NCBI RefSeq assembly: GCF_036345995.1
Contig: NZ_CP107796.1
Location: 7,502,001-7,566,000, forward strand
Direction: 5' to 3'
DNA from: Streptomyces sp. NBC_00557
Lineage (GTDB): Bacteria > Actinomycetota > Actinomycetes > Streptomycetales > Streptomycetaceae
Length of the DNA stretch: 64,000 bases
The notes under the pieces were generated by a model. That model made no database searches. It saw nothing but the letters and a program-made list of their open reading frames with translations, and was not told where the DNA came from. Shown here piece by piece: positions 25,330 through 30,575 of the stretch. The position numbers and the translations under genes are program-made. The stretch's first letter is position 1, and each line of letters starts with the position of its first letter.

Positions 25330-26151
25330 TCAGACGTCGAACGTGTAGAACCCCGTGTGGTCCAGCAGATCCGCCGGGCGCACGTCGTTCCACGGCTTCA
25401 TCGTCTCGCCGAGGTCGACGACGTCGGGCGTGCCGCCCGTGGGCGCGTACCCCGCGTCCGGATGCCGCCGCTGCCACTCGGCCCACAGCTTGTCGACGTA
25501 GGCGTGGTGGAGCCAGAACACCGGGTCGTTGGGGGAGACCCCGGTGGCCATCTGCCCGCCGACCCAGACGTGGACCCGGTTGTGCAGATTGACCCCGCGC
25601 CACCCTTCCAGATGGTTGCGGAAGCCGTCGGAGGCGCTGTTGTACGGCGGCCTGTCGTACGCCGGTATGGACAGCACCGACTCCACCTCTGCGGGCGTCG
25701 GCAGGTCGCGTACGGCCGTGCCGAGCGAGCGGCGCAGGAAGGTACGGCCGTCGACGCGCACGGTGACCGGCCAGTTGCCGGTCGCGGCGGCGAACGGGCC
25801 GTCCATCACCCTGCCGTCGGAGCTGCGCCCGGTGCCGCCGAGGAAGTCCGGCGCCCACAGCGCGGCCCGCACCGTGCGGTCGGTGCTCCAGTCCCAGTAC
25901 GGCAGCGCGACCGAGGGGTCCACCGACTGCAGCGCCCGCTCGAAGTCGAGCAGGAATCTGCGGTGCCAGGGCAGGAAGGACGGCGAGCGGTGGCCGGTCC
26001 GCTCGCCGGTGTCGGTGTCCGACATGACGAAGGCGTTGTGCGTGCGGACGAAGTCGTCGTAGCGCCCGCTGTGCTTGAGTTCGAGGACGGCGGCGACGAA
26101 ACGGCGCTTCTCGTCGGCGGTCAGGGCGGCCTGGTTCTTGCGTACGGTCAT
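25330..26151 (-). CDS. melC2: Tyrosinase (monophenol monooxygenase)
   Basis: The 273-residue type-3 copper enzyme has the CuA ligands H38, H54 and H63 (THNAF, TGHRSPSFLPWHRRF) and CuB ligands H190, H194 and H216 (LHNRVHVWVGG, FWLHHAYVD). It hydroxylates monophenols and oxidises diphenols to quinones, giving melanin. It has no signal peptide and is exported together with its MelC1 caddie protein. It follows melC1 by 35 bp on the same strand. Confidence 0.97.
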   Translation of the reverse strand: MTVRKNQAALTADEKRRFVAAVLELKHSGRYDDFVRTHNAFVMSDTDTGERTGHRSPSFLPWHRRFLLDFERALQSVDPSVALPYWDWSTDRTVRAALWAPDFLGGTGRSSDGRVMDGPFAAATGNWPVTVRVDGRTFLRRSLGTAVRDLPTPAEVESVLSIPAYDRPPYNSASDGFRNHLEGWRGVNLHNRVHVWVGGQMATGVSPNDPVFWLHHAYVDKLWAEWQRRHPDAGYAPTGGTPDVVDLGETMKPWNDVRPADLLDHTGFYTFDV

Positions 26152-26186
26152 GGTGCGCGGTGCTCCGGAGTTCCTTGCGGCGGCGG

Positions 26187-26567
26187 TCAGTTGGCGGGGA
26201 AGGGCAGCAGCGGGGCGCCCTGCAGCTCGTCCACCGCGGCCCGGGCGGCGGCGCGCGGGGTGGGCACCGGGGCGTAGTGGCTGACGACGCTGATCCAGGT
26301 GCCGTCGGCGTTGCGCATCACATGCAGCCGGACGCCGTCGACCGACACCTCGTACCCGCCGCCGTGTTCGTGGTGGTGGTCCCCGCCGCTCGTCGGACGG
26401 CCCTGTATCCGGCGGCCCCGGTAGACCTCGTCGAAGGCCTGCGGCATCGGCATGGGGTGGCCGTGGCCGGCGGCCGGGGCGGCCGGGGCCGCGAGGACGG
26501 TGACGCCGGCCGTCGCGGCCAGGGCGGCCGTCGCGGTGAGTGCGCGGCGCCGGGTGATGTCGGGCAT
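26187..26567 (-). CDS. melC1: Tyrosinase copper chaperone (caddie protein)
   Basis: The 126-residue protein has a twin-arginine signal ([30 protein letters not shown]) and a histidine-rich loop ([18 protein letters not shown]), then [25 protein letters not shown], as in MelC1. It delivers copper to tyrosinase and carries it through the Tat pathway. AGGAGG precedes the ATG by seven bases. It is the first gene of the melC operon. Confidence 0.95.
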
Positions 26568-26908: not shown

Positions 26909-27556
26909 GTGAAGGTCGTCTGCGTCGGGGGCGAGGGCTTCGGCATCGGCCGCCACCGGCTGCTCCCTGCTCGCCGACCGGGGCGCCGTCCGGGGCGGCG
27001 TGCGAGCCAGGCGGACAGCGTCGCCCTGCTGGAGAGACTCTTCGCCGACGTCCTGGACGGCCACCCGCTCATCGGCCGCCCCGGCGGCTGGGAGACCTTC
27101 CGCACCGTCACCTACCGCACCTGGCACCGCGGCAACCTGGTCCTGCCCGGCGACGCGGCCCACACCACTCACTTCTCCGTCGGCGCGGGCACCACCCTGG
27201 CCCTGGAGGACGCCATGTGCCTCGCCCACGCCCGGCACGAGCACGCCGGTCTGCCCGAGGCCCTCACCGCCCACGAGTCCCGGCGCCAGGCCGAACTGCT
27301 CCCCGTGCAGCGCGCGGCCCGCTGCAGCGCCCAGTGGTACGAGAACGTGCCCCGCTGCATCCACCTGCCCCCGCACCGCATGTTCGCCCTGCTCGGCCGG
27401 CGCCACTCGCCGCTGCTGCCGTACGTCCCGCCGCAGCCGTACTACGGCCTCGACAAGGCGGCCGGCCGGCTTCAGGCGCTGCGCAGGCTCAAGCGCCGGC
27501 TCGGCCCCAGGGTGGGCGGCACCCTGCGCGCCCGGTCGTCGGCCCACCGCGGCTGA
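26909..27556 (+). pseudogene. Remnant of an FAD-dependent monooxygenase
   Basis: A 215-residue reading frame starts VKVVCVGGE, the beginning of a Rossmann FAD motif, but jumps directly to GFGIGRHRLLPA, a segment that lies much later in such enzymes. A neighbouring frame then carries SLLADRGA, suggesting a frameshift. From base 27010 the frame reads a normal C-terminal third: WHRGNLVLPGDAAHTTHFSVGAGTTLALEDAMCLA, where GDAA is the second FAD motif. The ATP-like GxGxxG motif and most of the substrate domain are missing, so the gene is an internally deleted relic. Confidence 0.75.
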
Positions 27557-27591
27557 CCGCCGGCCACCCACCGCACCGAGGAGAACCGCCC

Positions 27592-28329
27592 ATGGCCGTG
27601 CCCGTCCCGTTCGACCAGACCTCGTCCGGATACAGCCTGCGGCGCGCCTACGGGCTGGCCCGCGCGGCCGGCCTCGCCCACCAGGACCGCGCTGCCGTCG
27701 AGGCCCAGGCCGCGCGGTGGGGCTTCGACCGGGTGCGCCACCACGAGAGCCGGTTCACCCCGCCCTTCCCGCTGCATGCCGTCCACGCCTGCACGCTGGC
27801 GAGCGACCGGATGATCGTCACCGCCTTCCGCGGCACCGAGCCCACGCGGATCAAGGGCTGGCTCACCGACTCCGGCACCCCGCTGAAGCCCGGCCCCGGC
27901 GGCAACGGATACGTCCACCAGGGCTTCGCCGAGGCCCTGGAGCCGCTCTACCCGGACGTCCAGCGGGCCATCGCCGACCTGCGCACGCACGGTCAGGCCG
28001 TCTACCTCACCGGGCACGGCCTGGGCGGCGCCCTCGCGATGCTGGCCGCCGCCCGCATGTACCTGGAGGACCCGTACCTGGCCGCCGACGGCGTCTACAC
28101 CTACGGCCAGCCGCGCACCTGCGACCGGCTGCTCGCCGAGGCGTTCCACCAGGGGTACGGCGGCCGGATGTACCGCTTCGTCAACAACGGCGACCTCGTC
28201 GCCCGGCTGCCGCCCGAACCCGTCTTCACCCACGTCCGCGCGCTGCGCTACATCGACTCCGGCGGCAGGCTGCACGAGAGCATGCCGATGTTCTCCGCCC
28301 TCACCGACCGGGCCGGCGAGCTGACCGAC
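27592..28329 (+). pseudogene. Class 3 lipase-like gene, 5' part, cut by an inversion
   Basis: An ATG preceded by GAGGAG starts a lipase-family protein with LHAVHACTLASDRMIVTAFRGTEPTRIKGWLTD, the nucleophile-elbow region YLTGHGLGGALAMLAAARMY, GVYTYGQPRTCDRLLAEAFH and RFVNNGDLVARLPP. The elbow is GHGLGG, where active lipases have GHSLGG, so the catalytic serine is absent. The normal frame stops making sense at 28329; the missing last 26 residues lie inverted at 28877-28957. Rejoined, the protein has 272 residues. In the present order the frame runs on for a further 160 meaningless residues. Confidence 0.88.
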
Positions 28330-28776
28330 GGTGGAACTCATCAGCGCCACCGCCGAGCCCCGCCGCTCCGGCGGGAGTTCGTCGCGCAGGATGCTGATCG
28401 ACAGCGGTACGACGGAGGCGGCGGCGCCCTGCAGCGCCCGGGCGGCGATGAGGACGCCGATGTCGGAGGACAGCGCGCACAGCACCGAGCCGGCGGTCAT
28501 CAGGGCGAGCGCCGAGGTGAGCACCCGGCGCTTGCCGTACATGTCGCCGGCCCGGCCGAGCACCGGGGTGAGGACGGCGCCGGAGAGCAGGGTCGCGGTG
28601 ACGGTCCAGGAGACGGTCGCGGCGGAGGCGCCGGTGAACTCGGGCAGGTCGGGGAGCAGAGGGACGACGACGGTCTGCATGACCGCCATGAGGATGCCGC
28701 CGAAGGCCAGCACCGGGATGGTGAGCCGGTGCCGGGGCCGGGCCGGCGGCAGGGGTGTCGGGGCGGGCTGGTCCAT
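28330..28776 (-). pseudogene. MFS transporter, N-terminal part, in the inverted segment
   Basis: An ATG at 28776 with AGGAGC upstream starts 149 residues with four or five membrane helices (LTIPVLAFGGILMAVMQTVVVPLLPDL; VSWTVTATLLSGAVLTPVLGRAGDMYGKRR, the MFS signature loop; ALALMTAGSVLCALS; LIAARALQGAAASVVPLSISILRDELPPERRGSAVALMSST). At 28330 the frame leaves MFS sequence and runs antisense into the lipase gene. It is the front half of a DHA2-like drug exporter whose remainder is at 28958-29989 on the other strand. Confidence 0.88.
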
Positions 28777-28807
28777 CGGCGCTCCTGCGGACGACGTGTA
28801 GCGGTGA

Positions 28808-28849
28808 GGTGAATGGCCATTCACCCTATCGGGTGAATGGCCATTCACC
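28808..28849. promoter_or_regulatory. Twin 18-bp palindromic operators
   Basis: GGTGAATGGCCATTCACC occurs twice, at 28808-28825 and 28832-28849, each a perfect palindrome, 24 bp centre to centre. They sit in the promoter of the MFS gene; on the minus strand TAGGGT, a -10-like box, overlaps the edge of the copy nearer the MFS start. The layout suits two dimers of the TetR protein encoded at 29994. Because the sites are palindromic, the inversion leaves them unchanged. Confidence 0.75.
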
Positions 28850-28876
28850 CATGCCGCCGGCGCCCGCCGGGAGCGC

Positions 28877-28957
28877 TCAGCCGAGGTTTCTCTCCAGGGC
28901 CGCCAGGTAGCTGTGCATCGCGTGGTCGCGGAGGCCGTCGGAGGCGGGCGCGAAGGC
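28877..28957 (-). pseudogene. Class 3 lipase-like gene, 3' end, in the inverted segment
   Basis: On the minus strand this 81-bp piece encodes AFAPASDGLRDHAMHSYLAALERNLG and a TGA stop. Joined to base 28329 it continues the lipase frame without a shift. The HSYLAAL ending is typical of lipase-family tails. It has no start codon of its own. Confidence 0.85.
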
Positions 28958-29989
28958 GTCGGCGGCATCGGCGCCGCGCTCGGCCTGCCGCTGGCCGCCC
29001 TGGTCGTCCAGTACGCCGACTGGCACACCATGTTCTGGCTGACCAGTGCCCTGGGCGCGGCGGGCGTCGCGGCGACCTGGTGGGCGGTCGAGGAGTCCCC
29101 GGTGCGCGAGCCGGGCCGGTTCGACGTGCCGGGTGCACTGGGCCTCGCCGCCGGGCTGGTCTGCCTGCTGCTCGGCGTCTCCCAGGGCGGCACCTGGGGC
29201 TGGGCGAGCGCACGGGTCCTCGGGCTGTTCCTCGCCGCCGCCGTCGTCCTGGCCCTGTGGTGGTGGCAGCAGCTGCGCGCCCGGAGGCCGCTGGTCGACC
29301 TGCGGCTGGCGGCCCGGCCCCGCGTCGGCCTGTCCCACGTCGCCGCCCTGCTCACCGGATTCGCCTTCTACGCCAACTCGCTGGTCACCGCACAGCTGGT
29401 GCAGGCGCCGGAGGCCACCGGCTACGGCCTCGGCCTGTCGATCGTCGCCACCGGCCTGTGCCTGCTGCCCGGCGGCGTGACCATGCTGTTCTTCTCGCCG
29501 CTGTCGGCCCGTGTCTCGGCCGCGCGCGGTCCGCGGATCACCCTCGCGCTGGGCGCCGCCGTCATCGCCTGCGGCTACGCGGTGCGCATCGCCGACAGCC
29601 GCGACCTGTGGATGATCATCCTCGGGGCGACCGTCGTGTCGACCGGCACCACGCTCGCCTACTCCGCGCTGCCCACCCTGATCCTGCGGGCCGTCCCCGC
29701 CGGGCAGACCGCCTCCGCCAACGGCGTCAACGTCCTGATGCGCACGATCGGACAAGCCGCCTCCAGTGCCGCCGTCGCCGCCGTCCTGGTGCACCACAGC
29801 ACCCCCGTCGGCGGCGCCCCGGTCCCGACCCTGCACGGCTACCTGCTGGCGTTCGCGATGGCGGGCGCCGTCGCCCTCGCCGCCTGCGCCGCCGCCCTGT
29901 CCATCCCCGGCGACGGCCCCGCGGACGGCGTCCGGCGCGGCGGGAGCGCCACCCGGGGCGCCCGCGACGAGGCGATGGAGGGAGCATGA
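28958..29989 (+). pseudogene. MFS transporter, C-terminal part
   Basis: From VGGIGAALGLPLAALVVQYADWHTMFW onward this 343-residue stretch continues the MFS protein with about nine helices, ending in a charged tail. With the N-terminal part it makes a 492-residue, 14-helix exporter of the DHA2 type. In the present order an ATG at 28913 could start a truncated product with 15 foreign residues, which would lack the first helices and the MFS signature loop. The stop is 4 bp before the TetR start, so the two form one transcription unit. Confidence 0.87.
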
Positions 29990-29993
29990 GGGG

Positions 29994-30575
29994 GTGAGCA
30001 CCCCACCCGCACCGAGCATGTCCGCCCGCCGCGACGCCGAGGCGACCAAGGAGGCCATCCTGAAGGCGGCCCGCCACCTGCTCGCCCGGCACGCGCACGC
30101 CGACATCACGCTCAAGGCGGTCGCCGAACGCGCCGGTGTCAGCCCGCCGCTGATCGTGAAGTACTTCGGCAACAAGGACGCCCTGTTCGCCCGCGTGATG
30201 TCCTTCGACACCGACGCCGACGCCCTGCTGGACGCGCCGCTCGCCGGCCTCGGCCGGCACATGGTCCGGCACGTCCTCGCCGGCCAGCGCGAACGCGGCG
30301 CCGACCCGCTGCTGCGCATCGCCTTCGCCCCGCTCCACGGCGACCACGGCGACATCCTGCGCGCCAACTTCCGCGCCCAGGTGACCGAACGCCTAGCGGC
30401 CCGGCTCACCGGCCCCGATGCCGGCCTGCGCGCCGAACTCGCCGTCGCGGCGCTCGTCGGCCTCGGCGTGATGTACGGCATCGCACGCGGCCCGCACCTG
30501 CGCGAGACCGACCCCGACACCCTCGCCGACCGCTACGGGCCGCTGGTGCAGGCGCAGTTGACGCCCGGAATCTGA
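29994..30575 (+). CDS. TetR-family transcriptional regulator
   Basis: The 193-residue protein has an N-terminal helix-turn-helix (EAILKAARHLLARHAHADITLKAVAERAGVSPPLIVKYFGNKDALF) and a C-terminal ligand domain of the TetR_C type (HMVRHVLAGQRERGADPLLRIAF). It directly follows the MFS gene and is likely its repressor, binding the twin palindromes at 28808-28849. The GTG at 29994 is used; an ATG at 30018 is an alternative. With the MFS promoter now facing away, expression of this gene is probably altered. Confidence 0.88.
   Translation: MSTPPAPSMSARRDAEATKEAILKAARHLLARHAHADITLKAVAERAGVSPPLIVKYFGNKDALFARVMSFDTDADALLDAPLAGLGRHMVRHVLAGQRERGADPLLRIAFAPLHGDHGDILRANFRAQVTERLAARLTGPDAGLRAELAVAALVGLGVMYGIARGPHLRETDPDTLADRYGPLVQAQLTPGI

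Follow-up and report, generated by a model that had tools for sequence, protein, structure and literature searches.

A small, genuine-looking inversion splits a lipase gene and an MFS transporter gene in one Streptomyces lineage among the genomes examined

Why do two neighbouring genes of Streptomyces sp. NBC_00557, one for a class-3 lipase and one for an MFS transporter, each break off at the edge of the same short block, with the missing end of each lying inside that block on the opposite strand? We addressed this question in a window of 64,000 nucleotides (the whole stretch of DNA that was analysed), which lies at 7.50-7.57 Mb of the 8.68-Mb contig of a 9.02-Mb genome that consists of 2 contigs and was scored 100% complete. 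From left to right, the locus contains a tyrosinase gene on the minus strand, the remnant of a gene for an FAD-dependent enzyme, the 5' part of the lipase gene, the inverted block, the 3' part of the MFS gene, a TetR-family gene and, downstream of the latter, an aldo/keto reductase gene. The features are as follows.

25333-26244, minus strand: tyrosinase gene (PF00264, 157.8 bits), adjoining the locus
26909-27556, plus strand: remnant of an FAD-dependent enzyme gene (FAD_binding_3, 22.8 bits against a cut-off of 22)
27592-28326, plus strand: 5' part of the class-3 lipase gene (Lipase_3, PF01764), with GHGLGG in place of the GHSLGG of most relatives
28325-28327, plus strand: left joint, shared bases CCG (3 bp common at the inferred register)
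28327-28963, minus strand: inverted segment of 637 bp, in the register that fits both joints (blastn minus-strand block 28324-28965 against genome G349)
28327-28776, minus strand: 5' part of the MFS transporter gene, inverted, with its ATG from 28776 (MFS_1, PF07690)
28808-28825, no strand assigned: operator-like palindrome 1, GGTGAATGGCCATTCACC; similar pairs lie upstream of the MFS gene in relatives
28832-28849, no strand assigned: operator-like palindrome 2, identical in its letters to GGTGAATGGCCATTCACC, its start 24 bp from that of the first
28877-28963, minus strand: 3' end of the lipase gene with its stop codon, within the inverted segment (from the translation; matches the tails of relatives)
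28963-28965, plus strand: right joint, shared bases CGG, the reverse complement of CCG
28964-29989, plus strand: 3' part of the MFS transporter gene (MFS_1, PF07690)
29994-30575, plus strand: TetR-family regulator gene (TetR_N, TetR_C_16), directly 3' of the MFS 3' part

Judged by its relatives, the segment is inverted: the window carries a derived order found in one lineage, and the relatives carry the ancestral one. All 80 Streptomyces loci compared (the best 80 of 193 found) had the MFS halves adjacent and co-oriented, and so did 11 of 11 further stretches from relatives, at least four of which repeat contigs of the 80 loci. G349, the closest match found at the locus (though not shown to be the closest genome), aligned by blastn in plus, minus and plus blocks (27576-28333, 28324-28965 and 28960-30575). 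With the exception of the flipped block, it was collinear with the window over most of 1.3-46.9 kb, in blocks that are 83-92% identical. A search of 392 genomes of the genus (391 besides the window's own, from a larger group) returned some match in 381. With two candidates scored per genome, the left joint was spanned only in the window's own genome among the matches listed; other genomes overran it by at most about 25 bp among these matches, and G349, the best other genome in this search, matched as two pieces in opposite orientations. No other genome had the flip among the matches listed (the best 80 of 193 loci and the 391 genus genomes), and a near-identity DNA search of a plasmid collection gave no match. 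The best reading of these comparisons is that the inversion is private to this lineage among the genomes examined. The sequence-only reading of this DNA had noted that both frames break at the edges of the block, and that the MFS 5' part, the twin palindromes and the lipase tail are inverted together; both observations were confirmed. It had also proposed that lipase, twin operators, MFS and TetR once read in one direction, which the relatives bear out, and that related genomes be checked for the flipped order, which none of the matches listed contained.

The same reading had placed the inversion at 28330-28957 (628 bp), between 5-bp repeats CCGAC and GTCGG, and had called it exactly reversible. 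The inversion itself stands, but its ends were off by 3 bp and are here corrected to 28327-28963 (637 bp). The repeat is also present but measures 6 bp rather than 5 (CCGACG at 28325-28330 and CGTCGG at 28957-28962). Turning the block back at this repeat does not restore the genes exactly, as the resulting lipase of 272 residues and MFS transporter of 492 residues each differ from the relatives by one codon. The 492-residue frame contains 3 codons at the MFS joint, whereas relatives contain 2 (6 nt). This 2-codon joint was found in 80 of 80 loci (the best 80 of 193) and in 11 of 11 plus 6 of 6 further MFS-bearing stretches, 97 of 97 in total, with at least 6 of these 17 further stretches being contigs already among the 80 loci. 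The relatives' residues here, S/A-T-V/L/I-G-I-G, have a constant spacing to which the earlier flip adds one Gly codon. In the 272-residue lipase, DR and F at the joint are separated by 7 residues, whereas the distance is 8 residues in 13 of 13 distinct relatives. The left joint lacks a codon (GCC) that is the reverse complement of the one in excess at the right joint (GGC), so that a single flip of 28327-28963 explains both. On this alignment with relatives, such a flip would be conservative over its 637 bp, with no base gained or lost, and the breakpoints are located to within 3 bp, the ends of the segment being ambiguous within the 3 shared bases. Alternatively, if the lipase gene had lost a codon and the MFS gene had gained one beforehand, a clean inversion at the 6-bp repeat seen today would give the present arrangement. 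A match of 6 bp or more in that register is above chance (probability 0.0044). However, this scenario requires two extra indels, each exactly at a joint and each the reverse complement of the other, and neither was present in the 97 MFS joints or the 13 lipase joints, which makes it extremely unlikely. Re-inversion at the most obvious repeat can thus give open frames in the wrong register, and it was the relatives that revealed the 3-bp offset.

At the inferred register, the joints have 3 bp in common, the little homology that is expected of an end-joining inversion. Three or more shared bases have a probability of 0.085 by chance, so this is near chance and proves no pathway. In the inferred ancestor, the ends of the segment formed an inverted repeat of 7 bp (GCCGACG and CGTCGGC), offset by 3 bp from the register of the actual breaks. 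The probability of such a repeat lying so close to both of two random breaks is about 0.008, with limits that were set after seeing the case. It could be a pointer to a route in which a conservative flip was guided by the repeat, needed no dedicated recombinase and was rejoined 3 bp out of register. We consider this route rather unlikely. If it were true, it would represent a repeat-assisted mode of inversion that is missed by searches for longer terminal repeats. The ancestral repeat is made of codons and its left arm differs among the lipase-bearing relatives; as aligned, it is not conserved across relatives. Shared flanks of the recombinase type were also sought at the breaks and rejected, as the 40-bp stretches there are no more alike than chance (14 against a mean of 12.2, P 0.34).

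An orientation found in a single genome raises the question of whether the block was reversed only in assembly, the strain itself retaining the ancestral order. The MFS halves, which still appear mostly constrained, would fit such an assembly error. However, there is little to mislead an assembler in 3 shared bases (inferred register) or 6 (earlier register), and the genome, in only 2 contigs, was scored 100% complete. In a survey against G349 there was one clear local inversion in about 360 kb that aligned collinearly, about 149 kb of the arm (window included) and 211 kb of a second region; a doubtful second case, a 109-bp match of 80%, lacked close collinear flanking blocks. Furthermore, the decay of the lipase 5' part and the FAD gene, described below, is independent of the orientation of the block. 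Taken against its two supporting points, this evidence makes an assembly error very unlikely. The sequenced orientation may also be a subpopulation variant in a mixed population.

To describe the decay of the locus, changes were assigned to the window and G349 branches by outgroups, and only sites where the outgroups agree were kept; this rule drops many synonymous sites, equally on both branches. By these counts, the lipase gene is decaying. In its 5' part, 31 nonsynonymous changes fall on the window branch and 3 on that of G349 (binomial p 8e-7), with 4 against 3 synonymous changes, and the tail has 2 against 1 nonsynonymous and 2 against 1 synonymous. The ratio of nonsynonymous to synonymous changes in the lipase gene differed between the window and G349 branches with p 0.051, and from the ratio in the MFS gene, both on the window branch, with p 0.0002. 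Amino-acid relative-rate counts for the lipase were higher on the window branch whichever of the 14 outgroups was used (from 19 v 7 to 40 v 10). The motif GHSLGG is kept in 13 of 15 aligned relatives, is altered in one of them (L150) and reads GHG in the window and in S. flaveolus (L066); the Ser of GxSxG, which we take to be the catalytic nucleophile, is replaced by Gly in the window and in these 2 of the 15 relatives. A lipase match was present in only 8 of 80 loci (the best 80 of 193), and the 72 loci that had none all had the MFS gene. The neighbouring FAD gene remnant has two internal deletions of about 243 and 301 bp relative to relatives (blastn blocks, L050), and the gene is missing at the corresponding place in G349.

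The MFS/TetR operon shows a milder pattern. The two MFS parts together have 18 nonsynonymous changes on the window branch and 4 on the G349 branch (p 0.004), with 20 and 10 synonymous changes, so that the ratio is no different between branches (p 0.34). The corresponding counts are 2 and 1 nonsynonymous and 7 and 0 synonymous changes for the TetR gene, and 1 and 6 nonsynonymous and 4 and 7 synonymous for the reductase gene. With 13 outgroups, relative-rate counts ranged from 3 v 2 to 8 v 0 for the MFS 5' part and from 9 v 8 to 17 v 5 for the 3' part, and were about even for TetR and reductase. Pairwise dN/dS for 39 window ORFs was 0.18 for the MFS 3' part, similar to the reductase (0.20), and 0.49 for the frame that holds the lipase; this set was not used as a control because several of its 39 rows resemble antisense frames or paralogues. 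Together, the substitutions suggest that the lipase was already losing function, and was probably inactive, before the flip, and that the flip that broke the MFS gene is recent. This dating is loose, as the MFS ratio does not differ between branches and the lipase ratio differs from that of G349 only at the p value given above. The best reading is of a recent inversion in a decaying stretch, and the biology of the locus looks like ordinary gene decay.

What the flip would do to the operon can be read from the layout. A scan of the 200 bp upstream of the MFS gene, with up to 4 mismatches of 18 allowed, found two palindromes in 86 of 92 stretches from relatives, a single one in 5 and none in the remaining stretch; at least 3 of these stretches repeat contigs of the 80 loci. 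The two palindromes in the window are likely operators. The palindrome-bearing MFS start now faces the lipase gene, and the MFS 3' part and TetR gene lie downstream of no such palindrome. The interrupted frames are chimeric, the lipase running on to 406 codons and the MFS to 434 codons. The flip would thus have disrupted the MFS/TetR operon and a lipase that was probably already inactive; an antisense transcript into the lipase gene and the loss of the TetR promoter would be consequences predicted from the layout.

As the block holds the MFS start together with both palindromes, expression would depend on which way it points, and a recombinase that flips it could switch the MFS/TetR operon off and on. 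A conservative flip is indeed what site-specific recombination produces. Nevertheless, no other genome had the window's orientation among the matches listed, and an invertible element would be expected to conserve its site across relatives, whereas here the repeat consists of codons with a variable left arm and most of the 80 loci have no lipase match at all. Terminal inverted repeats of about 10-20 nt were not found at the ends, where repeats measure 3 bp (inferred register), 6 bp (earlier register) or 7 bp (ancestor), and the 40-bp flanks of the breaks are alike only at chance level. Profile searches placed no resolvase or integrase gene over the cut-off within 1.8 Mb: PF00239 had 1 weak match about 6 Mb away, and PF00589 had 7 matches over the cut-off, none within that distance, and 1 below it about 0.9 Mb away. 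Finally, the lipase at one end of the supposed switch lacks its presumed catalytic Ser. A phase-variable switch is hardly credible on this evidence.

Our preferred explanation, which we hold with high but not complete confidence, is a one-off chromosomal inversion of the end-joining type, confined to this Streptomyces lineage within the set of genomes examined. The chromosome would have broken twice, close to the 3' end of the lipase gene and after MFS codon 150. The 637-bp piece between them would then have been turned round and rejoined at both ends, by Ku-type non-homologous end joining or by microhomology joining, with the chance 7-bp inverted repeat at the ancestral ends perhaps helping. 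The outcome would be a disrupted MFS/TetR operon next to a lipase that was probably already inactive, if the order of events is as proposed. End joining is the simplest route because the flip is conservative, 3 bp are shared and the genome has three matches to the Ku domain over the cut-off, one of them partial (positions 119-189 of 190). In Streptomyces, kuA is described as nearly ubiquitous and the further ku genes as variable, with kuC present in 17 of 38 genomes (PMC5124664). A literature search found no such inversion in Streptomyces and, its coverage being partial, this is weak evidence. Of the four options that the sequence-only reading had offered, a rare microhomology event, a subpopulation variant, a phase switch or an assembly error, the first is favoured, and the phase switch and the assembly error are unlikely.

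The inversion is thus genuine-looking, private and small, an ordinary kind of mutation that is well resolved. It provides a nearly base-exact example of a small conservative inversion arising in a large actinomycete chromosome and splitting an operon, and the example is readable because both ancestral joints are kept in relatives. Small lineage-specific inversions of chromosomal segments by end joining or microhomology are a known class, and the inversion resembles them as a short conservative flip with few shared bases, found in one lineage, with broken genes and with Ku-domain matches in the genome. Unlike them, it adjoins a 7-bp inverted repeat of the inferred ancestor from which its breaks are offset. 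MFS operons that are regulated by TetR proteins through palindromic operators are likewise a known class. Relatives of the locus conform to it, with MFS then TetR in the same direction and paired palindromes upstream, whereas the flipped palindromes and MFS start of the window face away from the remainder of the operon. Invertible elements are described as typically having terminal repeats of 10-20 nt and as being often located in intergenic or 5' untranslated DNA (PMC5903667). The locus resembles these elements in the conservative flip of the operator side of an operon, but differs from them in its repeats of 3-7 bp within two genes, in having no resolvase or integrase gene over the cut-off within 1.8 Mb and in having no second orientation among the matches listed.
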